Source: Chrysaora quinquecirrha
Lineage: Eukaryota > Cnidaria > Scyphozoa > Semaeostomeae > Pelagiidae
Assembly: GCA_014526335.1 (NCBI GenBank)
Contig: JACTAT010000010.1
Coordinates: 9,006,704 to 9,070,703, forward strand
Direction: 5' to 3'
Length of the DNA stretch: 64,000 nt
Part shown: piece after piece, positions 42,410-61,594 of the stretch
Layout of the letters: each line of letters opens with the position of its first letter
How positions within the stretch are numbered: the first letter of the stretch is position 1
Notes under the pieces: model-generated
Told to the model about the DNA's origin: nothing
The model's input: only the letters and a program-made list of their open reading frames with translations
The model's database searches: none
Made by a program: the position numbers and the translations under genes

Positions 42410-42415
42410 CCTGCA
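42410..42415. repeat. Polinton target-site duplication CCTGCA (left)
   Basis: CCTGCA directly precedes the left terminal AGTAGG. The same six bases follow the right terminus. Six-bp duplications are the Polinton hallmark. Confidence 0.9.
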
Positions 42416-42670
42416 AGTAGGATGCAAAGGGGGGTACCGGCTGGCATGGGGGTACGGCTGTCAGTGACGTCATCAGTGACGTCATCATGTCGCGCTATAG
42501 TGCGACGGTTTTTAACCGGTTTCTCCAACCTCGTTTTCAAGAGTCCCAGATCCTAGCGCACGCCGCTCCTACTACCAATAACGTCATAAGGTCGCGCTAT
42601 AGTACAACGAGTTTCTCCAACCTTAACCGTTAACCTCGTTTCCGATTTAACAATCTAGAACTTTCCAGAA
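42416..42670 (+). repeat. Left terminal inverted repeat, 255 bp
   Basis: Matches the complement of 61334-61588 base for base as far as I can read. It holds two CRE-like TGACGTCA octamers and ends inside a heat-shock-element array. Confidence 0.95.
42465..42484. promoter_or_regulatory. Twin CRE/ATF octamers in left TIR
   Basis: Two perfect palindromes TGACGTCA at 42465-42472 and 42477-42484, 12 bp apart. A third lies at 42680-42687, just outside the TIR. The mirror copies in the right TIR are at 61520-61527 and 61532-61539. This is the consensus for CREB/ATF-type bZIP factors. Confidence 0.65.
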
Positions 42671-42676
42671 TGTTCC
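42657..42676. promoter_or_regulatory. Heat-shock element array 1 (4 units)
   Basis: Four perfect alternating pentamers nGAAn/nTTCn straddling the inner end of the left TIR; a fifth imperfect unit (GAT) follows. Confidence 0.7.
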
Positions 42677-42720
42677 AGATGACGTCATCAAGTCATAACG
42701 CAGATGTTAAATAATAAAGA

Positions 42721-42835
42721 GGTTCAATTCAATTCAACAATTCAATTCAATTTAACAATACAATTCAATTTAATTTAATTCAATTTAACAATACAATTCA
42801 ACAATACAATTCAATTCAATATTTAATTCAGGGGC
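42721..42835. repeat. AATTC-rich minisatellite
   Basis: Irregular tandem units of CAATT/CAATTCAA/AACAATACAATTCAA. Confidence 0.8.
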
Positions 42836-42854
42836 AAGAAACGATTATCATCAA

Positions 42855-42986
42855 GAAGACATGTTATCTAGATATCAAAAGAACGCTCACGAAGAACTTT
42901 TCGATGGAAAAAGTTTAAGTCAACACCAAAGCTAATACCAATTCATTTTAAATGAAGATGGTATGGAAAGAAACATTCATGTTTAA
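42855..42986 (+). pseudogene. PolB-derived DNA scraps
   Basis: 42858-42947 matches 48856-48947 of the polymerase gene with few changes (for example TCAACACCAAAGCTAATACC). The next ~30 bp (GAAGATGGTATGGAAAGAAA) matches the non-adjacent segment near 47820. Two separate PolB pieces were therefore joined, and neither is translatable as polymerase. Confidence 0.7.
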
Positions 42987-43477
42987 TAACATGAAGGCAT
43001 GCTATCAGAGCACCAACGGAACACCGATAGAGAAGAGACAGAATCAGGGGTCTACCCTCAGATAGCGTTAGCGATGGAACACCTACTAAGAACTCACCCA
43101 TTCAACACCACCCGTCACTCCTGACCATCGAACGCTATCTGGCGGTATCTTTCATTTCGATACTCAGAAGAGAACTGGGGCAAGTGTTTTCCAGAAATAT
43201 TGTATCAGTTGGAAAAACATATAAAGCTGAAACTTGTTCAATCAAATTCCAAAAATTAACAAATGGTCTATTTGACGAGAACCGGGGCTATATTTTTAGA
43301 GCCTAAATTGCAAGGGAAATCTAGAAATCTAGTCTATATTGTATATGAAAATCACGATTCTGTTGGACAATGGAGAGGGCAAGCTGATAATTAGACGATG
43401 GTTATTTTTATTCACAACCTAGAATACGAGCCGGTTGGAGCAGCATTTTAATGCATCTATTCAGTTTAAATAATAAA

Positions 43478-43815
43478 GGACATCTTAACATGGAATGGGA
43501 TCGAGTCAGTGTTTTTTAAAGGTGGGCAAGTTGAACGAGAACTTTGCAAACGAATACTAAATAAAGAATTTAAGACGCCGAGACAACAACACACACAACC
43601 CTCTAAAAGAACTACAAGAACATTAAAACTAATTATATTAAATTTTTACCTTTTAAAAAGTTATAATGCTCCTGCAGTTCTTTTAGAGGATCGTGTGATG
43701 TCGCCTTTGGCGCCCCAAATTCTTCAATATTTTGGCTGGCTATTCCGATTCGTTTGCAAAGATCTCGCTCGACCTGTCCACCTTTATAATATACCATTGT
43801 AACTCCATTCCATGT
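43478..43815. repeat. Imperfect inverted repeat at the 3' end of the DEDDh-like gene
   Basis: The left arm (43478-43625) reads AACATGGAATGGGATCGAGT...GGTGGGCAAGTTGAACGAGA on +; the right arm (to about 43815) carries the same text on -. The arms meet near 43626. It is a hairpin made by copying the 3' third of the adjacent gene in reverse. Confidence 0.7.
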
Positions 43816-44097
43816 TAGAATGTCTTTAATGATAGATGGTGATTCGTTGCATTTAAGTGCTCCCTTTGGTTCATATTCAAGACCGTGAAGGTTATGATAG
43901 CACCACTTATATGCTCCCCTCCACTTGGGCTCCAGCTTTTTTTCGTCAATACATGGCTTGTACTCCCTTACAAAGCTTGTTATGCCATCATCTAACAATA
44001 TAGCAATCTTCCTCGTACACTGCGTATGATCTTGCTGTTCTGTTATTTCACCCAAGGTCTGCACATATTCGATATCCATTAAGGCTATTCTAGTCAT
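43633..44097 (-). CDS. Possible DEDDh-type nuclease-like protein
   Basis: 154 aa from an ATG at 44097. Residues 5-15 read ALMDIEYVQTL, a hydrophobic-D-x-E motif like exonuclease motif I. Residues about 105-118 read VYYKGGQVERDLCK. Near the end, SHDPLKELQEHYNFL resembles the HxxxxD-type third motif, though the spacing is not exact. An RNase-H-fold nuclease of the DEDDh kind is the best guess, from motif pattern only. It lies alone in the insert of the left arm on -, away from the capsid chain. Part of its 3' end is duplicated as an inverted repeat just beyond the stop. Confidence 0.4.
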   Translation of the reverse strand: MTRIALMDIEYVQTLGEITEQQDHTQCTRKIAILLDDGITSFVREYKPCIDEKKLEPKWRGAYKWCYHNLHGLEYEPKGALKCNESPSIIKDILTWNGVTMVYYKGGQVERDLCKRIGIASQNIEEFGAPKATSHDPLKELQEHYNFLKGKNLI

Positions 44098-44310
44098 TCT
44101 AGAAAAACAAGGTGGAATAAAAGACGTTAAAAAATTGCTGAAATTAATAGGGGTGGTTCAAAGCATGTTTACTATCCTAGTTCATCAAAAAGATCGAATA
44201 ATAAAACACGAACTTAACGGGGCCTTGATGAGCAGCATATGTAATAAAAATACATACCTTATTTCTTCTATACACAACTAAAAAATAAAGAATTAGAAAT
44301 TTAGTTGAAA

Positions 44311-44665
44311 GAGTTGAAACAAAGAATTGAAGCCAAGATTCTTAGGCCCGGTCGGGTCTCGAAGCTTCATAAGTTTCACGGCTTTTAGAATAAGTTTTGG
44401 TCGGGTAAATAAAAATAAAACATCCTTAAATAAGCAAGAAACATTTATTATAAGTTTAAATGGTAAGAAAACCTACATTTCTATGAAAAAGTAAGAGTTG
44501 AAACAAAGAATTGAAGTCAAGATTCTTAGACCCGGTCGGGTCTCGAAGCTTCATAAGTTTCACGGCTTTTGGAACAAGTTTTGGTCAGACAATTAAAAAT
44601 AAAACATCCTTAAATAAGCAAGAAACATTTATTATAAGTTAAAATGATAAGAAAACCTCGTTTCT
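44311..44665. repeat. 184-bp tandem repeat, two copies
   Basis: Copies start at 44311 and 44495 (GAGTTGAAACAAAGAATTGAAG). Each contains the palindrome ACCCGGTCGGGT or a one-base variant (GCCCGGTCGGGT), CTTCATAAGTTTCACGGCTT and an AT-rich tail AATAAAACATCC. No coding function is seen. Confidence 0.85.
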
Positions 44666-44729
44666 AACACTTTTCTGAGAAAAAGTAGAGAAAGTTAAAG
44701 ATACTTACCAAAATTCGAGACAATCTAGA

Positions 44730-44749
44730 AGAACTTTCCAGAATGTTCC
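44730..44749. promoter_or_regulatory. Heat-shock element array 2 (4 units)
   Basis: Four perfect alternating pentamers, the duplicated flank of the insert. Confidence 0.7.
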
Positions 44750-44788
44750 AGAGTTCCACATCCCTAAGAATCCCTTATCTGATTGGTT

Positions 44789-44833
44789 AGAACTTTCCAG
44801 AAAGTTCCAGAAAGTTCCACAAGATTCTAGAAA
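44789..44833. promoter_or_regulatory. Heat-shock element array 3 (9 units) with CCAAT boxes
   Basis: Nine contiguous pentamers alternating GAA and TTC in exact 5-bp steps; only the seventh (aCAAg) deviates. ATTGG (CCAAT complement) lies at 44782-44786 and again at 44853-44857. Located about 130 bp upstream of the ATG at 44951. Confidence 0.8.
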
Positions 44834-44878
44834 CGAGAAATCCTGCAATCTGATTGGCTAATTATGATAGCGTAATAA

Positions 44879-44936
44879 TTCGAACGCGACGTTCGAATCG
44901 TTTATGAAAATCGAGGCGTAAAGCGAAATCAGTTCA
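44879..44936 (+). promoter_or_regulatory. Core promoter of left solo zinc-finger gene
   Basis: A palindrome TTCGAACG-CGA-CGTTCGAA (44879-44897) is followed by a weak TATA (TTTATGAAAA, 44901-44910) and a doubled initiator TCAGTTCAGTT (from 44929) about 30 bp downstream, 20 bp before the ATG. Confidence 0.6.
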
Positions 44937-44950
44937 GTTAGAAATTAATC

Positions 44951-45631
44951 ATGAAGAGAAGTAGTCAAGAAGCAGGTTTTGGTCAACAAACTTCATCAAA
45001 GAAGAGAATTCGATTTTCTTGTGATGTTTGTCAGAAACACTTTAGCTCAAGAATCAAAATGAGATGCCACATGATGTCTATACATTCAACTCCATCTATT
45101 CTATCAACTTCTCAAATTATTCGTGATGGAAAGTATTTACAACTACCTACGTACATCAAAAACAAGCAAGCCGTTCTCAATGTACAGAACAGAGACGATA
45201 AATGCTTCATCTGGGCAATCCTATCCCGTCTACATCCACGATCGCAGAATCCAGAGAGAGTTGCAAAGTATTACTCATACTGGGATGAACTTAACTGTGA
45301 AGGATTGTCATATCCAGTAAATGCATCCGATAAAAAGATGATTGATACATTTGAAATAAACAACAACATTTCAATCAATATCTATATGGATGAAGATGGC
45401 GAAATTGTGCCAGTAAGAATAACTGAAAATAAACGTGAAAAACATGTGCATTTGCTATTAGTATTCAATGACGATGGTGAGAGCCACTATTGCTGGATAA
45501 AGGACTTGAGTCGTCTTTTAGCAGGTCAAGATGGTCACAAACGTCATGGAAAACGTTTTATCTGTCCTCTATGCTTATCAGGATGTACAACTCAAGAAAA
45601 TTTGGAAAAGCATGAAAAGTTGTGTAAATAA
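44951..45631 (+). CDS. Solo PolB N-terminal zinc-finger protein, left copy
   Basis: 226 aa. Residues 23-45 form a C2H2 finger (CDVCQKHFSSRI..CHMMSIH). Residues about 57-175 are the domain seen at the N-terminus of the element's own polymerase (KCFIWAILSRLHP, FEINNNISINIYMDED, HYCWIKDLSRLL). Residues 199-225 form a second C2HC finger (CPLCLSG...HEKLC). The gene stops directly after this finger, exactly where the polymerase goes on to its exonuclease domain. It lies inside the extended inverted repeat with its own HSE-CCAAT promoter. DNA binding, perhaps to the element ends, is inferred; no enzyme part is present. Confidence 0.7.
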   Translation: MKRSSQEAGFGQQTSSKKRIRFSCDVCQKHFSSRIKMRCHMMSIHSTPSILSTSQIIRDGKYLQLPTYIKNKQAVLNVQNRDDKCFIWAILSRLHPRSQNPERVAKYYSYWDELNCEGLSYPVNASDKKMIDTFEINNNISINIYMDEDGEIVPVRITENKREKHVHLLLVFNDDGESHYCWIKDLSRLLAGQDGHKRHGKRFICPLCLSGCTTQENLEKHEKLCK

Positions 45632-45841
45632 AAGACATGTTTTTAATTTCCTCGAAACATTCGTTTAAATACTAACATTAGAATATCTATAAATTGTTTT
45701 AAAGTTTTTGTAAGTTCTATAGAAATTGTTATTATTCAATTACTCAAGATGTACAAGAGTTTAATTACTAAAGACTCCTCCTCCTCAGCGTTAGATTCGC
45801 AGCGTTAAAAATGATGTAAGAATCCTCTTATCTGATTGGTT

Positions 45842-45866
45842 AGAACTTTCTAGAAGTTTCCAGAAA
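45842..45866. promoter_or_regulatory. Heat-shock element array 4 (5 units)
   Basis: Five perfect alternating pentamers, preceded by ATTGG at 45835-45839. Confidence 0.75.
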
Positions 45867-45934
45867 TGAGCGTAATAATAGATTCGAACGCGAAAAGAAA
45901 TAAAAAACATAATAATCCTGCAATCTGATTGGCT

Positions 45935-45979
45935 AGAACTTTCCAGAAGTTTCCAGAAAGTTCCACAAGATTCTAGAAA
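45935..45979. promoter_or_regulatory. Heat-shock element array 5 (9 units), PolB promoter
   Basis: Nine contiguous alternating pentamers with one deviant (aCAAg), an ATTGG box on either side, and a further TTC-GAA pair at 46011-46020. It is about 140 bp upstream of the PolB ATG. Confidence 0.8.
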
Positions 45980-46069
45980 CGAGAAATCCTGCAATCTGAT
46001 TGGTTAATAGATTCTAGAACGTAATAATTCTGATTGGTTAATAATTCGAACGTCATCGATCGATCAATC

Positions 46070-46105
46070 TATAAAATCGAAGCGTAAGTCGAAATCAGCT
46101 CAGTT
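46070..46105 (+). promoter_or_regulatory. TATA box and initiator of PolB
   Basis: TATAAAA at 46070-46076, then TCAGCTCAGTT from 46095. The TATA-to-initiator-A distances are 27 and 32 bp, correct for RNA polymerase II. The ATG follows at 46117. Confidence 0.75.
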
Positions 46106-46116
46106 AGAAATTAATC

Positions 46117-49100
46117 ATGAAGAGGTCACACGTAGAAGAGAGCTCAGCTACTAATAATAGTAAGCAAAGAAAAATCGCTTGTGATGTGTGTGGGAAATTG
46201 TTTGACAGAATCTTAAATCTCGCATCACATAACAAACAGCGCATGATATACACCCGTCAACAGCAGAACAAAATAAATTAGTCAGTGAAGGTAAGAACAT
46301 GAACAAGATGGATAAGAAAGCATTTAGAATATATACCGAAGAAGAAGATATCAAAGACTGGGCAAGAATCACACAGCATACTATTCGAGAAATTAAAGAA
46401 GAATTGCCAAACCACAAGCAGGGGATAAAGTATTATGTCACTATCGATGCCGAATTTAAAAAGTATGGTGATACGCTTATCGTTACAGAACCACCACCCA
46501 CATTCAGAACCACCGTGCAGGCGTTGTTAAGGACAGAGTATGACTATGTTGAAGATCAGATAGTTGAAGCTATCAACACACTACGAGATAAGATTGATGA
46601 ATTCTTGGAGAATGGAAGTGGTTGGATATTTACAAAGTTTACCCAACTGCAAGTGAAGATGTTTGATTATGATGCAATTCGTGGTGGAAAGTATTTGCAA
46701 CTACCAACATACATTAAAAACAAGCAAGCCGTCATCAATGTACAGAACGAAGACGATAAATGCTTCATCTGGGCAATTCTATCTGCTCTACATCCAACCA
46801 ATCAACAGAATCCAGAGAGAGTTGCACCGTATTACGATACTTAGATGAACTTAACTGTGAAGGATTGACATATCCAGTAAAAGCATCCGATAAAAAGATG
46901 ATTGATACATTTGAAGTCAACAACAACATTTCAATCAATATCTATATGGATGAAGATGGCGAAATTGTGCCAGTAAGAATAACTGAAAATAAACGTGAAA
47001 AACATGTGCATTTGTTATTAGTATTCAATGACGATGGTGAGAGCCACTATTGCTGGATAAAGGACTTGAGCCGTCTTTTAGCAGGTCGAGATGGTCACAA
47101 ACATCATGGAAAACGTTTTATTTGTCCTCTATGCTTATCCTCGTGTACAACTCAAGAAAGATTGGAAAAGCATGAAAAGCTATGTAAGGCTCCTCAAGCT
47201 GTTGAATATCCTAAAGATACAGAATTAAAGTTTGAACATTTCAAACATCAGAGCTTGCTACCATTTATCATCTATGCAGATACTGAATCCATTCTGGAAA
47301 GCTCAAACAAAAGAGCTGCTTATCAAGAACACAAGCCGATCAGTTATTGCATTTATGTCAAATCAATCGATGATAGATGGCAACAACCGCTGGAATGCTA
47401 TACTGGTGAAGACTGCATGGAGGTGTTGATGAATCGACTAGATGAATTGAATGAGGAAATCCGAGCAGTGTTCAAGAAAACCATGCCGATGATTAGATTA
47501 ACACCCGAAGAAAATGCAAGACATGATATGGCTACACACTGCTATTGCTGCAAGCAGCTATTTGATGGTAACAATAAAAGAAAAGTCAAAGATCATTGTC
47601 ACATTACTGGGAAATACAGAGGACCAGCTTGCAAGTATTGCAACTTCAAACATCTAGATATAATAGCAAACACTCACACGATCCCGATCGTCTTCCACAA
47701 TCTCAAAGGGTATGACATGCATCATGTTCTGAAGAATTTGAAAGGTAGAAATACAAAGATCATTGCCAATTCGAAAGAAAAGATCATGACTGCACAGATT
47801 GGTTCTCATACTGATGTGAATGAAGATGGTAAGGAAAGAAATATTCATGGGATCAAATACATTGACTCCTTTGCATTTCTGAGTACAAGTTTGGCAACAC
47901 TAGCAGGCAACCTACCGAAAGAACAATTTGTCTCTATCAAAGGTCACCTACATGATGAGATTACTCAACAGCAGTACCCTAGTGTACCGAGAAATGAACA
48001 GGAAAGAGTTGCAGAATTGAAAAGAGAACGCCAAGGAATGTTTGAGCCTGGTGTAGCATGTAAAAACTCGCTAAAAGATGAAGATGTTCTAGATTACAGA
48101 AATTGGAAAATACCACCAAGGAGAGATTTGACAGATGCTGAAGCTGAAGAAGTTGAGAGAGCATTTGAGTTGCTGACAAGAAAAGGTGTTTATCCCTACG
48201 ATTGGGTGGATAGTGCAGAGAAAATGGAAGAAACATCTCTACCACCGAAAGAAGCATTTTACAACAAACTCTGTGATTCTGACATCAGCAATGAAGATTA
48301 TGAACATGCTCAGCAGGTTTGGCGATACTTCAACTGTCAGACTTTTCAAGATTATCATGAACTGTACTTGAAAACCGATGTGTTGCTGTTGACTGAAATA
48401 TTCGAGTCGTTCAGAGCACAAAGTCTGGAATTCTACGGACTCGATCCTGCACATTATCTAACCGCTCCTTCGCTGGCCTGGGATGCGATGCTGAAGATGA
48501 CTGGTGTGAAGCTGGAATTGTTATCTGAAGAAAAGAAGGACATTCTACTTATGATTGAAGATGGCATTCGTGGTGGTGTCTCGATAGCAGTGAAACGGCA
48601 TGCTAAATCAACAGAAAACAACACGCTGATGTATCTGGATGCAAACAATCTCTATGGATGGGCAATGTCGCAACCAATGCCGTATGGTGGTTTCAAGCAG
48701 TTTACACAAGAAGAAATCAGAAATACAGACATCCACGCTTTGCTGACAAGATCGAATGAAGATGTTGGTTATATTCTCAAAGTCGATTTGGAATATCCAG
48801 CCGAATTACACGATCATCATGCAGATCTACCATTGGCGCCGCAAAGATTACAAGTTCAAGAAGACATGCTATCAGAACATCAAAAGAACGCTCACGAAGA
48901 ACTTTTCGATGGAAAAAAGTTTAAGTCAACACCAAAGCTAATACCAAATCTATTCAACAAAGAAGAATACCTCATGCATGAAAGAAATTTGAAGCAGTGT
49001 TTGGAATTGGGTTTGAAGCTGACAAAAGTTCATGAAATCATTGAATTCAAGCAAAGTCTATGGTTGAAAGAATACATTGATTTTAATACCCAGAAGAGAA

Positions 49101-49939
49101 CACATGCAAGAAACGACTTTGAAAAAGATCTGTTCAAGTTGATGAACAATTCCGTGTTCGGGAAGACGATGGAAAATGTTCGAAATCATGGACGTTTTGA
49201 AATCTGTACTGATGGAGAAGTCTTGAGAAAATGGGTAAGAAATCCAAACTTTTACGGAGTAATTGAAATCAACGAAGACACGCTTTTGGTTGAGAAAAAG
49301 AAGAAGAAAGTTACACTCAACAAACCAATGTATATTGGTTTCAGCATATTGGATATTAGCAAAACATTGATGTATGATTTCCACTATAACTTTGCAAAGC
49401 CAAACCTTCCAAATGTTGAGTTATGCTACATGGATACTGATAGTTTCATCTACGACATACCAATGTCTAAAGATCAAGTCGATAAAGTATTGAAAGATCA
49501 CGAAGATGGATTCGATTTCAGCAATTATGATAAAGAACATCCAAATTACTCTACAAGAAACAAGAAAGTTATCGGGAAAATGAAAGACGAGCTTGGTGGT
49601 GTGGGAATGAAAGAATTTGTTGGATTGAGATCAAAGATGTATAGCTGTCAAATCAATGATGGAAATACAATCAAAAAAGCGAAAGGAATCAAAAAGTATG
49701 TTGTGAAGAAGCAAATGAAGCATGAAGATTATGTGAAATGTTTGATGGAAATGAGAGCAGATGCACACATTCAACGCAACATTGAATCACACTGTCACAC
49801 CATCTACACTACGGAAAGAAAAAGGACATTGCTGAATCCCTTTGATGATAAAAGATACATTCTTGATGATGGATTTAACACGCTGCCATATGGGCATTAT
49901 TCGCTAGAAAGACGCTGTGAAGAAGAAAACATTGATTGA
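46117..49939 (+). pseudogene. PolB: Protein-primed family B DNA polymerase, two frameshifts
   Basis: Replicates the element from protein-primed ends. Frame 1 (46117-46281) has the first two Cys of a C2H2 finger; a shift near 46230 moves to the frame of 46299-46844, with KCFIWAILSALHP; a one-base loss near 46838 moves to the long frame ending at 49939. In that frame (numbered from 46760) are Exo I IIYADTESIL (~170), an endonuclease-VII-like HNH block CYCC...KDHCHITGKYRGPACKYCN (~260-293), Exo II HNLKGYDMHH (~313), Exo III YLKTDVLLL (~536), motif A DANNLYGWAMSQ (~627), motif B NNSVFGKTMENV (~795), motif C YMDTDSFIYD (~890) and a KxY-like SKMYSC (~957). All catalytic motifs remain. Both shifts lie in the N-terminal part. 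Confidence 0.95.
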
Positions 49940-50045
49940 ACTGTTTTAACAAACTATTTTAACAATATTCTAAACTAAACTGTTGTAACAAACTGTATTA
50001 ACAAACTGTTTTAACATTATTCTAACAAACTGTTGTAACATTATT
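49940..50045. repeat. Short tandem units between convergent PolB and protease
   Basis: Repeats of AACTGTTGTAACAAACTGT-like units, with TAACATTATTCTAA, fill the gap where the two gene blocks meet tail to tail. It may hold the 3' ends of both transcripts; no clear AATAAA was placed. Confidence 0.6.
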
Positions 50046-50531
50046 CTAAACTGTTGTAACAAATTGTTTTAACAAACTTAAATTATATCTTCGTTTAACA
50101 TAGTTGTAAACAAATAAATCGTTATCTAACTTGTTCTGAATGTTGAAATATTTATTAACCATTGAGTTCATTGAAACGTTTTTTGTTCTATTAATTAGAA
50201 AGAATATGCAATGTTGTCCACATGTAGCAGTCTCATAGGATTGAACTTGAACCTTGTTATAAGCGAGCTGGAACGGTCTAATAAAATCTAGAAATTCTTT
50301 CAACATAGGAGGTTCACCAAACGAATCATAGAAATCCAATCGACCATCATCAGCAATATAGACAGCTACCCAGTGGGTTCCTTTACCAGTAAAATTATCT
50401 TCATTGAAAATAAATGAACAAGGTAGAGAATGAATGTCGATGTTTTTGATTTCATCTTTCCCAAATACACCATGGAAATGAGGTAGCTTTTCACGTTTTA
50501 CAAGTAAGTTATTAATCGTTATATCATCCAT
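50046..50531 (-). CDS. PRO: Adenovirus-type maturation cysteine protease
   Basis: 161 aa from the ATG at 50531, 2 nt after the stop of the capsid gene. It would cleave virion precursors. Visible catalytic residues are His53 in THWVAVY, Asp69 in DFYDSFG, Gln97 and Cys104 in QSYETATCGQHC; the Gln-to-Cys spacing of seven matches adenovirus protease and the Ulp1-like fold. Length is near that of adenoviral proteases, a little shorter. It is the last gene of the - strand structural chain. The frame is intact. Confidence 0.9.
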   Translation of the reverse strand: MDDITINNLLVKREKLPHFHGVFGKDEIKNIDIHSLPCSFIFNEDNFTGKGTHWVAVYIADDGRLDFYDSFGEPPMLKEFLDFIRPFQLAYNKVQVQSYETATCGQHCIFFLINRTKNVSMNSMVNKYFNIQNKLDNDLFVYNYVKRRYNLSLLKQFVTTV

Positions 50532-50533
50532 AA

Positions 50534-53434: not shown

Positions 53435-53790
53435 CTTTGCTGAAAAACAAGTCAATCTGACAATTGTCTTCAAATTTATCCGATATATCTTCCAACGTTT
53501 CCCAGTTGATGATTTTAATATCAAATGATTTTATATGAGATCTTGTTACTCTATACGATGCAGGATTTATAGTTGATCTATGAATCGATTGCGAATCGTC
53601 AATAACTAGACCCAATAGAGGAACAGCATCCTTACTTATAATGAAATCACAACAAACAGCAAACACTTTTTCATTCTCATCTTTTTTCTTTTCGATATAG
53701 CGTACAAGCAATCATGCTACATTTCCAACTTGTATCCACTGGAAGTGGATTAACAAAATTTACATGTCTATTATTTAAAGTTACATTCAT
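53427..53790 (-). pseudogene. Small ~120-codon gene, one frameshift
   Basis: Reading from the ATG at 53790 gives NVTLNNRHVNFVNPLPVDTS; near 53712 the frame must change to continue into RYIEKKKDENEKVFAVCCDF and end at 53427 (...LFFSKDD). The downstream frame has no ATG of its own after the preceding stop, which supports a single gene with a one-base shift. Function not recognised. It sits between the two minor-capsid-like genes and its stop overlaps the start of the second. Confidence 0.55.
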
Positions 53791-53805
53791 ATTACCGGTC
53801 TAATT

Positions 53806-54822
53806 CTAACTGTTAGTGATGTTTCTCCAATATATTGCTTTGCGGAATAGAGAGATGTTAATTTTATAGGATTCCCCTTCATCATCTACCAATCTTATTG
53901 GAATTTGTTGAAACTGCAACCTCTCCAATGGTGTGAAAATTATATTCTTTGGAGCATAATATCTAACATATGTATCGAGATCTGTATCGTAAAATGTTAG
54001 TTTTCTCAAAACTCGCCTTTTCTCAATACCACCAAGATAATTACTTTCCAATAGATCGCATTCTATATTTATAGATGTATGTTCATTTAAATGAACACCA
54101 TCCTTTATTCTACTCAAACAGTTGATCTTTCCTCCAGTTAAAGGATCTCCATCTGCCTTCTTCTTATATACAATCAGATACATAGCCTGGTGAGGTTGTA
54201 TACTGTCAGAAGTCTTGTATTCAAAGTATGTTAATGTTGAACCATTTGGCAATGTGTGATTCATTTGATCTTCCAAACCAAGGAAATGTGCCAAAGGTCT
54301 TGAAAATTTCATGAGAAGTGCACTGGTAAATTTCATCGTTTTACCGTGATAAGTTGAATATCCCAATGATTTCAAATCATCTTTCATTTCAAACTGTATC
54401 TTTCCATCAATCAATGATACTGATAACATGTTTTTCAACTCATAACCAAACTCAGGGAAATTCAATACCCTGTCATTGAAAAGCCTTTTGAATTCATAAT
54501 ACATGAGAGTATTATCGCGTGTTTCAATAATTTCTTTATCAAGATAGATTTTTTCATTAAAAAAATCATTTATACCCCAATCAAGCAATTTTCTCTCTTG
54601 ATCCGTGACTGTAACATACTCATTTGCTATTGAAAATCAATATTGATCTTGCAGTGATTTTTCTCCTCTATCCGGCAACGTCATTTGTAACAATGCCATT
54701 TCCCATTTTCTCTTATTGTTTAATTGAAATACGTGAGGTAAATCAACTGTGAAATCTACTAATTTCATTCTATCGGTAGCAAATCCCGAAGGAAGAACCA
54801 AATCAAATTCTTCATCAATCAT
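53806..54822 (-). pseudogene. Second minor-capsid-like protein, in-frame TGA
   Basis: A 339-codon frame from the ATG at 54822 to 53806, broken only by a TGA at 54637-54639. Both halves are in the same frame. The start, FDLVLPSGFATDRM...NNKRKWEMALLQMTLP, parallels FNLTCSNDSD...GKWEVALVEMVYEL of the neighbouring minor capsid gene, and the end QQIPIRLVDDEGESYKI parallels its FTIKVYNELGKEIQF. Length is also the same (338 versus 334), so the two look like paralogues. Its ATG overlaps the integrase stop as ATGA (54819-54822). Confidence 0.65.
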
Positions 54823-55858
54823 ATTGTCTCCAATTGACTTTCAGCTACCCACTCATCAAATTGGGGAGGATAACCTCTCCATCTGATTAAATAGAAGTTT
54901 TTGCCCCTCTTCTTCTTAGTTTTCAACACTTGCTCCACAACAAATGTTTTTGGAAGATACACACGTTGTAGCTCTTCTTTGTAGAAACGATAAACTATCT
55001 TGTCACCTTGTAGATCTTCAATTTCATACATTACTGGATATCTTTCTTTAAAGACTTTACTGATCTTGAATATTTCTTCAGTGTAATTTTGCAAGAAACC
55101 TTTCTTAAACATTCTCTTCTTCAAACTTAATCTTACATAAACTCCAGTTTTGAAAAGCTTTTTATTTTTCTGGTTTCTTTTTCGAACAGTGTAGACATTT
55201 TCTTGGTTGACTTCAGAAGGTCTCATACCAATAGATCTGTGGTATGTATTATTGTATGAGTTGACCAAATCTTGCAAATTATCAATGTATCTCAACGTAT
55301 TTCGTGCTTTAAGGTATCTATACATTCGTCCTTTTAATGTTCTGTTAAATTGTTCAACAATTGCTGCCTATACTTCATTATTTGCAGTGTAAAACCCAAT
55401 ATCGTTTTTCTTCAACAAAGCTTGGAATTCTTTGTTTATAAACTCGCTGCCTTTGTCGGATTGTACCTTTTTAGGTTTTCTTTCGGATAAGATTTCTTTA
55501 AACGCATTGACAATTTCTTTTGCAGTTTTTCTTTTAGAGGCTTTACCCATGCATACTTGCTAAAAGTATCAATACAGCATAAGAGGAATGTAATGTTGTC
55601 GTTTTCTTTTTTCAAATGCGTCATATCAACAAGATCACATTCCCACAAATAGTCAATGTTATTGGTTAGTATCCGCTCCCGTTTAAAGTTCTTCCTACTT
55701 GGTTTGTGCAGCGAATAGGCAAGACTAGTTTTACTCCATTCTTCAACATCTTTCCTTTTCAAATTAGGAATTACTTTTTTGAATTCCCTATACGCTTTAT
55801 CCAAACCCCCGAGAGAACCCGGAACAGAAGGATCAGAATATAACTTTTCTAAACTCAT
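54819..55858 (-). pseudogene. INT: Retroviral-type integrase with chromodomain, broken
   Basis: Inserts the element and makes the 6-bp duplication. The N-terminal part (55858 to about 55530) ends in DYLWECDLVDM with Asp75, the first catalytic residue, and FSKYAWVKPL. A one-base shift in an A run near 55529 moves to the frame with SDKGSEFINK (second Asp). An in-frame TAG at 55368-55370 then interrupts just before AAIVEQFNRTLK, which holds the catalytic Glu. The remainder is in the same frame: YNNTYHRSIGMRPSEVN, an SH3-like region, and a chromodomain FVVEQVLKTKKKRGKNFYLI with WRGYPPQFDEW. All DDE residues survive, but the gene needs two repairs to be read through. Confidence 0.93.
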
Positions 55859-56025
55859 AATAAATCAATTAACAATTCTAACAATTTAACATTTGTACAC
55901 TTTTTTCTTCGTCGCTTTCTTTTCTTGCACTTTCTTCCTTTATTTATAACCTTTTTAGGCTTTTTCTTCACTGGTTCATCATCAGATTTGCTTGGCTCCA
56001 TGACTATCTTTTCAAAAGAATCCAT
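55855..56025 (-). CDS. 56-aa highly basic protein
   Basis: ATG at 56025, stop TGA at 55857-55855 overlapping the integrase ATG as ATGA. After an acidic head (SKSDDEPV) it runs KKKPKKVINKGRKC then KKRKRRRKKC, and ends in a Leu-rich helix (KLLELLIDLL). About 40% of residues are Lys or Arg. It may be a small DNA-condensing core peptide, by analogy with the basic core peptides of adenovirus-like virions; this is inference. The precise overlap with the next gene supports a real gene. Confidence 0.55.
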   Translation of the reverse strand: MDSFEKIVMEPSKSDDEPVKKKPKKVINKGRKCKKRKRRRKKCTNVKLLELLIDLL

Positions 56026-56053
56026 TTTTACTGTCCTATAGAATTGTTGATCT

Positions 56054-56726
56054 CTATTTATAGCCTTTTTTAGACTTGTACACCACTAAAGGAGCTTCAT
56101 TAGGGAAAATATTAGTGCGAAATCTCATATCTTCTCCAATCGATTGTGTGAAATCACAAAGTAAGTAGCCGTACATTCTTGCTGTTGCATCATTGTAAAT
56201 GTCAAGGAATGTTTTTGGAGATGAGGGCATAATTTGTCGTGCAAGAAATCTAATTTGACTTCTATCTCGAGGATTCTTGAAAAGAACTTGATACTGAGTA
56301 TTGAGAGCTAAATTTCTCATTTCTGTTCCTCTTGGAAAAGGGTTTTGCATCATAACAATTACATTGATGTTTAGATGAGATCTTCCTTTTGTGAACAATT
56401 TTCCCAAATCTTTAAAGTTGGCAATTTCATGCATTAAATCATCGACAACAATAGTTAATCTTTTGTCCGATCTTTCGATTTCTTCGTACAAGTTTTCAGG
56501 TAGCTCAGTAATAAATCTACAATTCCGTTAAAACTTTTTTAACGCGCTCAAACAATTCCGGTTGATTTGTTCCCGAGATCCACATAAGATTGGGATATTG
56601 TCTGCCATTATCAATTATATTGTTATAATTTTTCAACAGATTTTCTACCCAAGTCGTTTTACCGCTTCCGCTTACTCCAGATAAAATCAAAGAAAAAGGT
56701 GCTTTAAATCTCAAATCATAACTCAT
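56054..56726 (-). pseudogene. ATP: Genome-packaging ATPase (FtsK/HerA type), one frameshift
   Basis: Pumps DNA into the capsid. From the ATG at 56726 (preferred; an ATG at 56753 lies in a motif repeated in the spacer) residues 16-26 read SGVSGSGKTTW, the Walker A loop. The frame ends at 56517 with a TAG; a one-base shift near 56516 opens the frame to 56054. There the Walker B LTIVVDDLM, a VIVMMQNPF sensor strand and NTQYQVLFKNPRDRSQI are seen, typical of the adenovirus/Polinton A32-like clade. All motor motifs remain. Confidence 0.88.
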
Positions 56727-56905
56727 ATTTATAACAAATTTTAAACATCTCATACAACAGGTAACATCTATTTATAACAAATTCTTTACATCTAGCTACA
56801 ACATTGAATAATATCTATAACATCAAACTAATATCTATAACATGGAACTAATGTTCACCTAATTTTAAACATCTCATGAATAACAACTGTATAACAACGT
56901 TCAGT
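56727..56905. other. Repetitive AT-rich spacer
   Basis: Near-repeats of TATAACA(T)C and TTTTAAACATCTCAT (56740 and 56861). It is the only sizeable gap in the long - strand chain and could hold an internal promoter; nothing more definite is seen. Confidence 0.4.
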
Positions 56906-57888
56906 CTAGGCAAATGCCATGATTAAATTGTTTATTATTCTGCTCAATATTTGCAACAGATACATCGATGTGAAGAGACTTGGATGAGATAATTCATCAT
57001 GCAGATTTTCAACTCTGGATTTGATTGTTTGATTCAGTCGACCATTCTTCTTCTTCAGCTCATCAAACATTGATTTCTTAAACGATTCTTTCCCTTCAGC
57101 CAGCATGTCGGAGTTGACATAACTAATGTGAAATGTTAGAAATCTAAAAGCATTATGTACCATACAATCTTGCTTATGATCAGCAGCATCAATTTGTTTT
57201 GCCCACATCTCTGTAGTTGCACACTTTTCACAATACTCTTTTGCTTTGTTGAAAATATATTTCAGGAGAATTTCGGCATATGCTTCTTGCACTTGAACAT
57301 CAATCTTTGCCGGATCTTCTTCTTCTTGTTTCTTTTTCTTCTTTTGAATCTGCTCATCATCATCACTCGCTGGTCTTTTCCGGGATGGTTGTGGAAGCAT
57401 TTTCAGATCAGCAACCTTTCCATATAATGCTTTCAGCATTTCTTCTTTTAGATTTATTCCCGTCTTTGATGGCTTCTCATTCTTCCATCTTCGGATTCCA
57501 AGACAGAGTCGTAGAGGGAAATCACCATTTTTCTGCAAATAGATTTCCAGCTTATCCTCATACGCTTCTTCTTTACTCAAAACTTCAGTGTATAGTGTTA
57601 GAAACTGTGTGATTCTGCCAAAGTACTGCTTTGATTGAATGTGTGCTTTGTTCTTCTCAAACAGACTTTCAGCATCTTCTCCATGAACTGTAATTGATCG
57701 TTTATGTTTTCACCAACTATTTCCAAGAGACGAGACAGTGCTGCATGAGAAATAGCCATTGATTTAACAGCTAATCCATCTTTAATTGTATCTTTCACCA
57801 CTAACAACCATTTGTTAGAACCGGGTTGAACAGCAAATGATGACTTGATTAGGCCCTCTTCATCTCTAACTTCATAAATTGTAGCCAT
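56906..57888 (-). pseudogene. Unknown Polinton protein, ~327 codons, one frameshift
   Basis: The first frame (57888-57598) starts MATIYEVRDEEGL and includes WLLVVKDTIKDGLAVK. Near 57670 the reading must move by one base into the frame that stays open through 57580 to 56906. The second part has GDFPLRLCLGIRRWKN, an acidic then Lys-rich linker (SDDDEQIQKKKKKQEEED) that looks like a nuclear localisation signal, and a helical region with three Cys. No family recognised. It is the first gene of the chain and is driven by the HSE/TATA promoter at 57938-58072. Confidence 0.6.
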
Positions 57889-57937
57889 GACTCTTTAATG
57901 ATTTTTTAAGCTCCGCACTCTACGACGACTTGTTACA

Positions 57938-57972
57938 ACTGAACTGATTTGATTTTACGCATCGGTTTTATA
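57938..57972 (-). promoter_or_regulatory. TATA box and initiator of the structural chain
   Basis: On -, TATAAAA at 57972-57966 followed by the doubled initiator TCAGTTCAGTT at 57947-57937. The distances of 27 and 31 bp are as for PolB. A palindrome-like CGAACG...CGTTCG lies just upstream (57980-57994). Confidence 0.75.
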
Positions 57973-58027
57973 GTTTGATCGAACGTGGCGTTCGAATTAT
58001 TAACCAATCAGATTGTAGGATTTCTCG

Positions 58028-58072
58028 TTTCTAGAATCTTGTGGAACTTTCTGGAAACTTCTGGAAAGTTCT
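58028..58072. promoter_or_regulatory. Heat-shock element array 6 (9 units)
   Basis: Nine alternating pentamers with one deviant (cTTgt), flanked by CCAATCAGATTG on the left and CAATCAGATTG on the right. It lies between the - TATA at 57966 and the + TATA at 58124. Confidence 0.8.
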
Positions 58073-58098
58073 AGTCAATCAGATTGCAGGATTTCTCG

Positions 58099-58130
58099 TT
58101 TCTAGAATCTTGTGGAACTTTCATATAAAA
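58099..58130 (+). promoter_or_regulatory. Heat-shock element array 7 (5 units) fused to a + TATA box
   Basis: Five pentamers (one deviant) at 58099-58123 run directly into TATAAAA at 58124-58130. This points right, so the region is a divergent promoter. Confidence 0.65.
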
Positions 58131-58199
58131 TAAAGTAAGGTGTTGAATCATTTCTTTAATTTATTGCAGTTATATTGTCCTGAAGTATTTACTTTCGTC

Positions 58200-58440
58200 A
58201 TGGATCTAGAATCGTCTAAACTTGAAGGAGGAGGAAAAGAAGGAAAGATTGTTTTAAAGAATGCTGTGGTGGCTTAATAAGGAATTTTTTACTTTAGCTA
58301 CATTGTGTTCTGGTATTGTTTCGCTTCCTTTAACAGCAGCTTGATGGTTGATATGGATAATTTACATACTATTGTATGGAAGATGCGATATGACTTATTG
58401 AAGCACAGATCTTAAATAACACTATGGTATGATTTAATAT
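58200..58440 (+). pseudogene. Decayed small + strand gene
   Basis: ATG at 58200 opens 25 codons with an acidic then GGGKEGK head and stops at TAATAA (58275-58280). In the next frame a hydrophobic stretch (TLCSGIVSLPLTAA, then WLIWIIYILLYG) follows after one stop. This looks like a small membrane protein broken by a shift and a stop. It is downstream of the + TATA at 58124. Weak evidence. Confidence 0.3.
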
Positions 58441-58466
58441 AGATTGAAAGTTTAGTGAAAATTTAC

Positions 58467-58880
58467 TCAAGCAGTTTTTCTCTTCTTTCGTCTACGTTTT
58501 CTGATTGTTTTCCTACCACCATTAAGTCGCTTTCTACGCTTTCTTCTCACACCACCACCAGCTAATTTTCTTAAACCAGTCTCAACACCTAAACCAGTTG
58601 CAGCTATGGCACCGCCTTTTGCAGCTGCTTTTGCTCCTTTTAATGCGAATTTCTTTACGGCTTGTTTGCTAATATTTCTAGTCACTGCTCTTCCTCCTTG
58701 CTTAATTGCTTGTCTAACTGCTGCTCGCGCTAATGCGGACCCCATCTTTCTAGAATTTTCTAATGTTGACTTCCTTTTATAGCCACCTCTCATCAACTCG
58801 GTTGCTTCCTGTCCACCATCATTTTTTAACATATCATCAATAATCATTGAAGCAATAATAGTTCCTGCTAGTGATGCCAT
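58467..58880 (-). CDS. Basic virion-core-like protein, 137 aa
   Basis: Intact. The N-terminus is hydrophobic and acidic (LAGTIIASMIIDDML), the middle basic and Ala/Gly-rich (ARAAVRQAIKQGGRAVTRN; ALKGAKAAAKGGAIAATGLG), and the C-terminus a run of Arg and Lys (RRKRRKRLNGG, KRRRKKRK). It looks like a DNA-packaging core protein with a possible membrane-inserting helix. Its ATG overlaps the stop of the preceding gene by one base (TAATG at 58882-58878). Confidence 0.55.
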   Translation of the reverse strand: MASLAGTIIASMIIDDMLKNDGGQEATELMRGGYKRKSTLENSRKMGSALARAAVRQAIKQGGRAVTRNISKQAVKKFALKGAKAAAKGGAIAATGLGVETGLRKLAGGGVRRKRRKRLNGGRKTIRKRRRKKRKTA

Positions 58881-59173
58881 TATTTGAAATCGGATTTTTT
58901 AGCATATGCGAATTTATCTAGCGTTTTCTTTGGTACCCCAGCAGCTCTCCAGACTTCTCTAGGGATAAATTGTAAAGGTTTATCTTTTTTCCACCCCTTT
59001 TTCCTAATTCTCGGTTTCAATTCGCGCTGTAAGCCTGGTAATGGTGTAATGCCAATCGCTGTTTTGACAATCCAATTTTGTAGGTTTTTAAAAAGACCTT
59101 TACCTCTAATTCTCTTTATGCGTCGTCGCTTTGTACGCTGTTTCTTTCTATCCTGTCTCTTACGCTTACCCAT
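58880..59173 (-). CDS. Basic protein, 97 aa
   Basis: Intact. The first 25 residues are almost all Lys/Arg (GKRKRQDRKKQRTKRRRIKR). After a helix with NLQNWIVKTAIGITPLPG comes PLQFIPREVWRAAGVPKKT, a globular-looking tail. Starts 2 nt after the Fic gene stop. Probably a virion DNA-binding protein; family not recognised. Confidence 0.5.
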   Translation of the reverse strand: MGKRKRQDRKKQRTKRRRIKRIRGKGLFKNLQNWIVKTAIGITPLPGLQRELKPRIRKKGWKKDKPLQFIPREVWRAAGVPKKTLDKFAYAKKSDFK

Positions 59174-59175
59174 CT

Positions 59176-59685
59176 TTAATTACTAGGTGCATGCATTGTA
59201 TTTATAAGAGATTTGAGATGACTTAGATATTCTTGTAAACTTTTATCAGATTTTCTTAAAGCCTTAATATACTTTTCTTGATCTTCCCATATTACACATT
59301 TATTAGACAGGAAACAATACAAGAGTTTCGCCAGTCTACCATTACCATCCGGAAAAGGATGTATTTGTAAAAACTTTCGCAGAAATTCGTGAGGTTGAAT
59401 ATTTCTATCATCTAAGAGTTTAGCAAGTTCTTTCTCAATATCTTCAGGTTTACAATATTCAAAGTATTCTTCATTGAAACATGTTATTCGAGGGTTTTGC
59501 GCAAATTCGCCATAGTTTTCGTATATGATAAAGGAATGCGCTTCTTTTATTATACTAATTGTTAATCGATTGGTATATTCTCTTATAGTTTTTAAATAGA
59601 TATAGATATCATGTAAATCACCAACTTCATTTTACGTTTCATTAATCGAATTTAGCATTATTTCTATATAATTGAATGTAGTCAT
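59176..59685 (-). pseudogene. Fic-domain (AMP-transferase-like) protein, in-frame stop
   Basis: 169 codons from the ATG at 59685. The C-terminal half has FLQIHPFPDGNGRLAKLLY, the Fic signature HPFx(D/E)GNGRxxR, with His as the catalytic base; the final Arg is Lys here. Upstream, LTISIIKEAHSF...GEFAQNPRIT fits the Fic helix and β-hairpin that precede it. Fic enzymes transfer AMP or related groups to Tyr/Ser/Thr of target proteins. A TAA at 59634-59632 (codon 18) breaks the frame. Further upstream, to about 59920, other frames hold plausible coding scraps, so the gene may once have been longer. A TATA box lies at 59954-59948. It leads the second - strand chain. Confidence 0.75.
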
Positions 59686-59947
59686 TTAAGACATGCTTTA
59701 CATTGATTTCTTCTTTTATTTCTTCATGAAACAATCAGAGTCAATTGAAAAAGTAGTTTTTCACCCCAATCTCCTAGATCTGCATCCAATAATAGTATGA
59801 ACTGTTGATGGGGATTGATTGTTTTATGCAACTAGATTCTTTCTAGTTAATTCCGCTCTTTCTTCACAGCGTTGAATATGAGGTAAGCTAGTGAAATCAT
59901 CTTCGCATCTATCGAGTGGTATGACCAGACTGTTGCTTCTTCTCGAT

Positions 59948-59954
59948 TTATATA
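59948..59954 (-). promoter_or_regulatory. TATA box upstream of the Fic chain
   Basis: TATATAA on -, about 75 bp inside the nearest heat-shock array (60031) and about 265 bp before the Fic ATG. Confidence 0.5.
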
Positions 59955-60030
59955 GCTATACTATGGAGATTCTCTGTTAAATCAGGCGTGACGTTTGAAT
60001 TATTAATCAATCAGATTGTAGGATTTCTCG

Positions 60031-60075
60031 TTTCTAGAATCTTGTGGAACATTCTGGAAGTTTCTGGAAAGTTCT
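60031..60075. promoter_or_regulatory. Heat-shock element array 8 (9 units)
   Basis: Nine alternating pentamers with one deviant (cTTgt). Mirror of array 5 and placed upstream of the Fic chain. Confidence 0.8.
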
Positions 60076-60178
60076 AGTTATCCAGATTGCAGGATTATTG
60101 TGTTATTTTATTTCATAAACGATTCGAACGTCGCGTTCGAATTATTATTACGCCATCATAATCAATCAGATTGTAGGA

Positions 60179-60213
60179 TTTCTGGAAACTTCTCGAAACT
60201 TCTGGAAAGTTCT
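60179..60213. promoter_or_regulatory. Heat-shock element array 9 (7 units)
   Basis: Seven perfect alternating pentamers followed by CCAATCAGATTG at 60217. A palindrome TTCGAACG-TCG-CGTTCGAA lies at 60123-60141. Confidence 0.8.
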
Positions 60214-60427
60214 AGCCAATCAGATTGCAGGGTTCTTACATAATTTTTTAACGCTATGAATCTAACGCTGAGGAGAAGGAGGAGTCTTTAGTAATTAAAC
60301 TCTTGTTAATCTTGAGTAATTGAATAATAACAATTTCTATAGAACTTACAACAACTTTAAAACAATTTATAGATATTCTAATGTTAGTATTTAAACGAAT
60401 GTTTCGAGGAAATTAAAAACATGTCTT

Positions 60428-61114
60428 TTATTTACACAACTTTTCATGCTTTTCCAAATTTTCTTGAGTTGTACACGACGATAAGCATAGAGGACAGTAA
60501 AAACGTTTTCCGCCGTGTTTGTGACCATCTTGACCTGCTAAAAGACGACTCAAGTCCTTTATCCAGCAATAGTGGCTCTCACCATCGTCATTGAATACTA
60601 ATAACAAATGCACATGTTTTTCACGACGAACTTTAGTTATTCTTACTGGTACAATTTCACCATCTTCATCTATATAGATATTGATTGAAATGTTGTTGTT
60701 GACTTCAAATGTATCAATCATCTTTTTATCGGATGCTTTTACTGGATATGTCAATCCTTCACAGTTAAGTTCATCTAAGTATCGCCGGTACGGTGCGGCT
60801 CTCTCTGGTTTCTGCGATCGTGGACGTGGATGTAGACGGGATAGGATTGCCCAGATGAAACATTTATCGTCTCTGTTCTGCACATTGAGAACAGCCTTCT
60901 TGTTTTTAATATACGTAGGTAGTTGTAAATACTTTCCATCACGAATAATTTGAGAAGTTGATAGAATAGATGGAGTTGAATGTATAGACATCATGTGGCA
61001 TCTCATTTTGATTCTTGAGCTAAAGTGTTTCTGACAAACATCACAAGAAAATCGAATTCTCTTCTTTGATGAAGTTTGTTGACCAAAACCTGCTTCTTGA
61101 CTACTTCTCTTCAT
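60428..61114 (-). CDS. Solo PolB N-terminal zinc-finger protein, right copy
   Basis: 228 aa, near-identical to the left copy (44951-45631) but two residues longer around a PRPRSQKPERAAPYRR stretch. The same two Cys/His fingers and KCFIWAILSRLHP domain are present, and it stops at the same point after the second finger. Both frames are open although the full polymerase gene is broken. It lies in the extended right inverted repeat, transcribed inward, with arrays 10 and 11 upstream. Confidence 0.7.
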   Translation of the reverse strand: MKRSSQEAGFGQQTSSKKRIRFSCDVCQKHFSSRIKMRCHMMSIHSTPSILSTSQIIRDGKYLQLPTYIKNKKAVLNVQNRDDKCFIWAILSRLHPRPRSQKPERAAPYRRYLDELNCEGLTYPVKASDKKMIDTFEVNNNISINIYIDEDGEIVPVRITKVRREKHVHLLLVFNDDGESHYCWIKDLSRLLAGQDGHKHGGKRFYCPLCLSSCTTQENLEKHEKLCK

Positions 61115-61129
61115 GATTAATTTCTAACT

Positions 61130-61186
61130 GAACTGATTTCGCTTTACGCCTCGATTTTCATAAACGATTCGAACGTCGCGTTCGAA
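61130..61186 (-). promoter_or_regulatory. Core promoter of right solo zinc-finger gene
   Basis: On -: palindrome TTCGAACGCGACGTTCGAA (61186-61168), a weak TATA (TTTATGAAAA) and a doubled TCAGTT initiator just before the ATG. Mirror of 44879-44936. Confidence 0.6.
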
Positions 61187-61231
61187 TTATTACGCTATCA
61201 TAATTAGCCAATCAGATTGCAGGATTTCTCG

Positions 61232-61276
61232 TTTCTAGAATCTTGTGGAACTTTCTGGAACTTTCTGGAAAGTTCT
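61232..61276. promoter_or_regulatory. Heat-shock element array 10 (9 units)
   Basis: Nine alternating pentamers with one deviant (cTTgt); CCAATCAGATTG directly on each side. Mirror of array 3. Confidence 0.8.
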
Positions 61277-61302
61277 AACCAATCAGATTGCAGGATTTCT
61301 CG

Positions 61303-61347
61303 TTTCTAGAATCTTGTGGAACTTTCTGGAAACTTCTGGAAAGTTCT
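61303..61347. promoter_or_regulatory. Heat-shock element array 11 (9 units)
   Basis: Nine alternating pentamers with one deviant (cTTgt), running across the inner border of the right TIR. Confidence 0.8.
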
Positions 61348-61588
61348 AGATTGTTAAATCGGAAACGAGGTTAACGGTTAAGGTTGGAGAAACTCGTTGT
61401 ACTATAGCGCGACCTTATGACGTTATTGGTAGTAGGAGCGGCGTGCGCTAGGATCTGGGACTCTTGAAAACGAGGTTGGAGAAACCGGTTAAAAACCGTC
61501 GCACTATAGCGCGACATGATGACGTCACTGATGACGTCACTGACAGCCGTACCCCCATGCCAGCCGGTACCCCCCTTTGCATCCTACT
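61334..61588 (-). repeat. Right terminal inverted repeat, 255 bp
   Basis: Complement of 42416-42670, no gap needed. Carries the twin CRE octamers at 61520-61539. Confidence 0.95.
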
Positions 61589-61594
61589 CCTGCA
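61589..61594. repeat. Polinton target-site duplication CCTGCA (right)
   Basis: Identical to 42410-42415. Confidence 0.9.

Follow-up and report, generated by a model that had tools for sequence, protein, structure and literature searches.

Polintons, also called Mavericks, and adintoviruses are characterized by terminal inverted repeats (TIRs), a 6-bp target-site duplication, a phi29-like DNA polymerase B (PolB), a double jelly-roll capsid protein and a chromodomain integrase. The trigger that wakes integrated Polintons is, to our knowledge, an open question. Polinton particles have been suspected and had not been observed (PMC8097293). Caenorhabditis Helitrons carry clustered heat-shock elements (HSEs), which account for 61.4% of the HSEs of C. 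elegans; upon heat shock the occupancy by HSF-1 increases and the Helitron transposase mRNA is up-regulated (PMC6927752). The Arabidopsis copia retrotransposon ONSEN contains HSEs in its own promoter that are recognized by heat-shock factor (HSF), and it is activated by heat (PMC8376061). Helitrons and ONSEN are established precedents for HSE-bearing elements. Here we describe a Polinton with eleven HSE arrays in a 64-kb stretch of DNA from the scyphozoan Chrysaora quinquecirrha (contig JACTAT010000010.1; the whole stretch is referred to as the window). As judged from the sequence, these arrays are likely to be functional HSEs within a promoter cassette that was duplicated ahead of several non-structural genes, and host HSF would drive these genes as early genes.

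Arrays and promoter module

The element has a length of 19,173 bp and is filed as a Polinton/Maverick by its TIRs (42416–42679 and 61325–61588, 262 of 264 positions matching), its target-site duplication, a phi29-like PolB and a double jelly-roll capsid protein. All features are listed in Table 1. Sites of the CRE type, TGACGTCA, are found five times in or beside the TIRs (42465, 42477, 42680, 61520 and 61532) and twice more outside the element. A 184-bp direct duplication (44309–44666) lies in the stretch that links the left TIR to the zinc-finger gene.

A preceding sequence-only reading had placed eleven arrays in this Polinton and none in the other 45 kb or so, and both statements held, with every array at the position given. 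Exact alternating GAA/TTC runs of at least four units occur ten times in the window (4–7 units), always within the element, compared to an expectation of 0.025 (mean over 200 dinucleotide shuffles of the window). An HSE is defined by at least three alternating nGAAn/nTTCn units, which all ten runs contain. The array at 58099 is weaker, with five units, one of them deviant, and without an exact three-unit run. When one mismatch was allowed in four units, a scan of the window recovered 11 arrays, all of them within 976 bp of promoter segments. The other 63,024 bp were empty, both inside the element (18,197 bp of sequence beyond these segments) and outside of it (44,827 bp). Since the segments had been delimited by the arrays themselves, the ratio of densities is a descriptive figure; the absence of arrays elsewhere does not depend on this choice. 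Scans with five units and two mismatches or six units and three mismatches gave the same result (11, 0 and 0). Less strict settings picked up background, namely 13 hits elsewhere in the element and 15 outside it at three units and one mismatch, and 2 and 6 hits, respectively, at four units and two mismatches.

The arrays are copies of a single module of approximately 71 bp, composed of CTGATTGG, a nine-unit HSE, a 16-bp spacer and another CTGATTGG. At 61208–61348 the module is repeated in tandem with a period of 71 bp. All six nine-unit arrays share the deviant seventh unit ACAAG, after which the units resume in phase, and three arrays are doubled by subterminal inverted repeats that are roughly 1.2 kb long. 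The eleven arrays reflect fewer copying events. The earlier assertion that chance cannot produce eleven arrays needs correction on this point: because the arrays are copies, dinucleotide shuffles provide a suitable null model for a single array and not for how many there are.

Downstream of the module follow full or half palindromes of TTCGAACG, a TATA box, a TCAGTT initiator and the ATG, in this order. The distance from TATA to the initiator is 25–32 bp at four promoters. Ten of the 13 CTGATTGG matches in the window are located in the element (100 shuffles: mean 2.68, largest value 10), as are all nine matches of TTCGAACG (0.73 expected). The palindrome TTCGAACG-3-CGTTCGAA is present at 44879–44897, 60123–60141 and 61168–61186, with half sites at 45883, 46045 and 57989; it is possibly bound by the element's own zinc-finger protein. 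The hsp70-like layout proposed earlier was thus recovered with HSE, CCAAT box, TATA box and initiator; the left-TIR array at 42657 has no CTGATTGG or TATAAA box nearby.

Table 1. Features of the Polinton and its promoters (window coordinates).
Feature	Position	Strand	Basis
HSE array, 4 exact units, left TIR	42657..42676	+	exact-run scan
HSE array, 4 exact units	44730..44749	+	exact-run scan
Nine-unit HSE array, seventh unit ACAAG, left zinc-finger gene promoter	44789..44833	+	scan
HSE array, 5 exact units, distal in PolB promoter	45842..45866	+	scan
Nine-unit HSE array, seventh unit ACAAG, proximal in PolB promoter	45935..45979	+	scan
Nine-unit HSE array, seventh unit ACAAG, promoter of 57888-start gene	58028..58072	-	scan
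Truncated module, 5 units, one deviant	58099..58123	-	mismatch-tolerant scan
Nine-unit HSE array, seventh unit ACAAG, Fic side	60031..60075	-	scan
HSE array, 7 exact units, Fic side	60179..60213	-	scan
Nine-unit HSE array, seventh unit ACAAG, right zinc-finger gene promoter	61232..61276	-	scan
Nine-unit HSE array, seventh unit ACAAG, overlaps inner end of right TIR	61303..61347	-	scan
CCAAT boxes CTGATTGG flanking module; similar layout at other promoters	44779..44857	+	motif count
Palindrome TTCGAACG-CGA-CGTTCGAA	44879..44897	.	full or half sites at other HSE gene promoters
PolB promoter, TATAAAA box with TCAGTT initiator at a distance of 30 bp	46070..46105	+	TATA-to-initiator spacing
Polinton/Maverick element, first letters AGTAGG, last letters CCTACT	42416..61588	.	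TIR identity
Target-site duplication CCTGCA, left copy	42410..42415	.	identical to right copy
Target-site duplication CCTGCA, right copy	61589..61594	.	identical to left copy
Stand-alone zinc-finger gene, PolB N-terminal duplicate	44951..45631	+	ORF; repeats I1-I3
Zinc-finger gene, second copy	60428..61114	-	ORF and repeats
Protein-primed DNA polymerase B	46117..49939	+	fold match to phi29 DNA polymerase; frames
Probable adenovirus-type cysteine protease	50046..50531	-	PF00770 E 0.0094, below cut-off; PDB S273R E 0.0013
Major capsid protein, double jelly roll	50534..51844	-	fold of predicted model
Integrase, two separate frames, C-terminal chromodomain	54819..55864	-	PF00385 E 3.7e-9 on 54819-55367
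Gene without assigned function, MA.IYEV start, interrupted in window copy	56906..57888	-	frames; first gene of capsid-strand block
Fic-domain ORF, no in-frame ATG ahead of domain	59176..59631	-	PF02661 E 5.8e-11; stop-to-stop frame

Constraint on the cores and spread in the host genome

Sequence comparison of the copies indicates that the GAA/TTC cores are under selection, because they vary far less than the two-base spacers between them. Between the left and right subterminal repeats, differences amount to 0/81 in the cores and 8/54 in the spacers (p = 4.7e-4), where the left arrays had been picked for intact cores and the right ones had not. Other noncoding sequence differs at 57/501 and coding sequence at 45/681 positions. 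Without the 44730 array, whose partner is possibly not its true counterpart, the counts are 0/69 and 6/46 (p = 0.0033).

For a genome-wide comparison the modules were anchored by their downstream flank instead of the HSE, which gave 119 anchors. We kept 57 of them, with at most five differences from a window module in the 45 preceding bases (38 loci, 26 distinct sequences); the 62 dropped at this cut were, by eye, mostly arrays in another register or had no array directly before the flank. In the 57 copies 4 of 624 core letters vary (0.64%) as compared to 52 of 416 in the spacers (12.5%), 16 of 416 in the downstream flank (3.9%) and 6 of 208 in the CCAAT box. Counted by letters the core differs from the spacer with p = 1.6e-17 and from the flank with p = 3.1e-4, but letters are not independent in copies that share ancestry, and counts of variable positions are safer (3/24 in the core, 10/16 in the spacer; p = 0.0017). 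The deviant unit ACAAG (e.g. 44819–44823), which breaks the HSE pattern, has no variable position among its five in the 26 distinct sequences.

In the host assembly (328 Mb, 740 contigs) the exact six-unit pattern has 1,084 matches and a reversed control pattern has one; the true number of arrays is lower than 1,084, because overlapping matches in longer arrays count separately. The 50 matches that we placed were the first listed, from four contigs (C2, C46, C86 and C91), and are not a random sample. Seven are located in the window element and 43 elsewhere, in 27 partly overlapping loci, all of which match the element with its HSEs masked. An 89-bp module query has at least 81 matches (40 of 587 candidates scored). 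All 37 further promoter copies hold an exact run of at least six units (20 with six, 14 with seven and three with eight), a retention that is partly ascertained because the query contained the HSEs. By best BLAST match, the sequence downstream is the PolB start in 12 copies, the 57888 gene in 12 and the zinc-finger gene in nine; one copy leads into the Fic side and three are unplaced. For PolB itself at least 55 genome matches were found (43 of 1,022 candidates scored), 82–100% identical and including the window's own. Several at 96–98% identity are free of internal stops, and many other PolB copies contain stops.

The host encodes HSF: two of its DNA-binding domains are clear, at 93.9 and 80.4 bits, and four further matches score lower. 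For the top-scoring domain, solved HSF structures are found as matches. It also contains the same motif at one hsp70 promoter. In a divergent hsp70 pair, each gene of which is in one open frame, the intergenic stretch contains a CCAATCAG box together with two exact HSEs of three units on the side of the right-hand gene; no exact run of that length is present in the left promoter. The HSEs of this pair are shorter than the arrays of the Polinton. Capture of a host hsp70 promoter was considered and is not claimed. The shared part is mainly the HSE, and the alignment of module and core promoter to the right promoter, although it surpassed that of most shuffles, was equalled by 8 of 300 of them (182 of 300 for the left promoter).

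Gene content, proposed control and alternatives

The PolB frame is interrupted in its 5' part and open from 46760 to 49939 (1059 amino acids). The predicted model has a pLDDT of 80.1, and phi29 DNA polymerase takes ranks 1–9 of its PDB fold matches. By sequence, none of 20 members had a Pfam match to the DNA polymerase B family at E 0.01, and the PDB sequence search gave no such match either. The capsid model is of low confidence (pLDDT 59.4) and matches the capsid protein of Sputnik with a Foldseek E-value of 1.6e-12, as well as those of mavirus, PBCV-1 and iridovirus. Outside its chromodomain the integrase is interrupted and has no integrase match in Pfam. A partial ORF at 56054–56527, also without a Pfam match, was assigned by eye as a candidate FtsK/HerA-type ATPase. 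The Fic motif reads HPFPDGNGRLAK, with K at the position of R in the consensus. Interruptions affect PolB at its 5' end, the integrase, the Fic ORF and the 57888 gene, so that the window copy is probably non-autonomous. Elsewhere in the window there is a LINE-type reverse transcriptase ORF (19437–21410, PF00078; best matches 62–69% identical) and an RNase H-like domain of a reverse-transcribing element (8287–8931).

According to the sequence-only reading, capsid, PolB, Fic and zinc-finger genes would be induced together. HSE promoters are indeed present at PolB, at the zinc-finger genes and on the Fic side, but induction of the capsid genes is unsupported, because none of the capsid, probable protease, integrase and candidate ATPase genes is preceded by an HSE promoter. 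In the block 50046–56434 we found no array at four units with one mismatch and no CTGATTGG box; its upstream sequences were inspected by eye as well. In the capsid-strand block the HSE promoter is found only at the first gene (start 57888), from where read-through into the capsid genes is possible. Both zinc-finger genes turned out to be duplicates of the PolB N-terminal region (repeats I1–I3), and the C2H2 matches of the left one score below the curated cut-offs. As to the Fic side, its frame is broken in the window copy and just one of the 37 further promoter copies was placed there.

Based on these results we propose the following mode of control. The cassette, consisting of CCAAT box, nine-unit HSE, CCAAT box, TTCGAACG palindrome, TATA box and initiator, would have been copied ahead of PolB, the stand-alone zinc-finger duplicate, the 57888 gene and the Fic side. 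Once HSF is active, upon heat, proteotoxic stress or infection, possibly also in gametogenesis, host HSF trimers would bind the arrays. Together with a CCAAT factor HSF would then drive the non-structural genes as early genes, and the late genes would follow through replication or read-through. We infer HSF binding, induction, the order of expression and the consequence for the element from the DNA sequence, which suggests that cell stress turns the Polinton on; most likely it is the non-structural genes that HSF would drive. As the frames of the window copy are interrupted, induction is proposed for the family and not for this copy. If the replication genes share an HSF cassette, this would provide a host trigger for Polinton activity. 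If the family holds most of the long HSE arrays, it would be a further mobile element, after Helitrons, that supplies the heat-shock network. A wider and more speculative picture, which we regard as possible rather than probable, is that of an HSF-gated provirus family that stays quiet until the stress sensor of the host is on, expresses its replication genes first and has, with about a thousand strong HSF-binding arrays, reshaped or soaked up the heat-shock response of the host.

Several points weigh against HSF control, in addition to the shared ancestry of the module copies and the partial ascertainment of the promoter copies. With a looser cut of 15 differences (65 modules, 34 distinct), 6.0% of the core letters vary compared to 17.6% in the spacers and 3.5% in the flank. 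Core and spacer still differ (p = 2.2e-11; by positions p = 0.056), but the cores now vary more than the flank (p = 0.04); the higher core variation arises because shorter arrays enter. As the flank is also conserved, and so is the ACAAG unit, in which three letters differ at the looser cut, HSF may not be the only factor that binds. No three-unit run is present in three further stretches at hsp70-family genes of the host. Finally, ten pieces with distant Polinton PolB relatives (L016, L017 and L023–L030; 75,137 bp, mostly short contigs) are likewise without such a run. These pieces lend no support to HSE arrays as a general feature of Polintons, and nothing shows the trait beyond the element's own family.

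HSF has developmental roles besides the heat response. One example is HSF5 in male meiosis (PMC11059408). The arrays might thus bind HSF of germ cells or early embryos and confer expression in the germline, where transposition pays. The sequence evidence is compatible with this as well, and at least two DNA-binding domains of the HSF type are encoded by the host; the long perfect arrays with CCAAT and TATA boxes, however, resemble inducible hsp70 promoters. We regard control by development instead of heat as a realistic though less likely explanation, and it is not exclusive of heat induction. The cassette could also be a relic of former HSF control, silent in degraded copies, as the interrupted frames of the window element and the stops in many other PolB copies would have it. 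In view of the nearly identical TIRs, the intact target-site duplication and the stop-free PolB matches, this seems unlikely.

More improbable still is an incidental match to HSF, with the module bound by some other factor or by the zinc-finger protein of the element. Conservation or enrichment extends to the TTCGAACG palindrome, the ACAAG unit and the flank, and a protein with weak C2H2 matches is encoded downstream of the module, yet a long series of GAA and TTC units that alternate in steps of five bases, between spacers that are free to vary, is the signature of HSF. The canonical HSE is given as GAANNTTCNNGAA (PMC13104882). We give very little credence to a 10-bp minisatellite expanded by slippage with an accidental likeness to HSEs. 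Tandem Repeats Finder does report periods of 10 and 20 bp at several arrays, and array length differs among copies. Slippage, however, is at odds with cores that vary about 20-fold less than the spacers, with dense arrays confined to promoters and with units that resume in phase past the deviant one.

Relation to known systems

Close relatives of the capsid protein, up to 84% identical, were found at the protein level. In IMG/VR, six-unit arrays were found at 15 loci, three of which (L001, L011 and L014) resemble one sequence by eye, and the palindrome at five loci. In the contig pieces around the 15 array loci, tblastn gave no match to eight element proteins at E 0.01, and none of the five palindrome loci has a tblastn match to element proteins. 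Searches of viral contigs with a single PolB query or a capsid alignment yielded no match, and a PolB alignment yielded two. In GTDB genomes the PolB alignment matched eight loci (L023–L030) on bacterial and archaeal metagenome-assembled genomes; the Polinton-type PolB on these contigs is probably eukaryotic contamination.

An HSE-bearing Polinton was not found in searches of the open-licence literature as far as titles and the beginnings of abstracts tell, nor is one described in the available parts of PMC6505742, PMC13104882, PMC10680173, PMC11125864 and PMC11071213. Among the transcripts raised at low pH in one study was a Polinton-like one, and hsp70 rose in the same animals (PMC6505742). 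Integrated virophages of the mavirus type are inducible, with giant virus infection as the trigger (PMC8547959). In gammaherpesviruses HSF2 promotes lytic genes and the exit from latency (PMC12047821).

With Polintons and adintoviruses the element shares TIRs, the 6-bp duplication, the phi29-like PolB, the double jelly-roll capsid, a probable protease and the chromodomain integrase; its extras are the HSE promoter cassette, the duplicates of the PolB N-terminus as separate genes and the Fic ORF. Like the mavirus-type virophage, an integrated relative reactivated by a changed state of the cell, it would respond to its host cell, but the trigger would be host HSF instead of a giant virus. The gammaherpesvirus case is similar in that a host HSF favours leaving latency, and differs in that the virus is a herpesvirus for which long HSE arrays are not described in the available part of PMC12047821. 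ONSEN likewise carries HSEs in its own promoter, but it is a retrotransposon with long terminal repeats (LTRs) and has its HSE in the LTR, whereas the Polinton is a DNA element with eleven arrays. Helitrons come close as DNA transposons bearing clustered HSEs. They belong to another superfamily, whereas the Polinton encodes a capsid and has its arrays in the copied promoters of several genes. A conserved HSE promoter cassette in a Polinton family is a new combination of known kinds.

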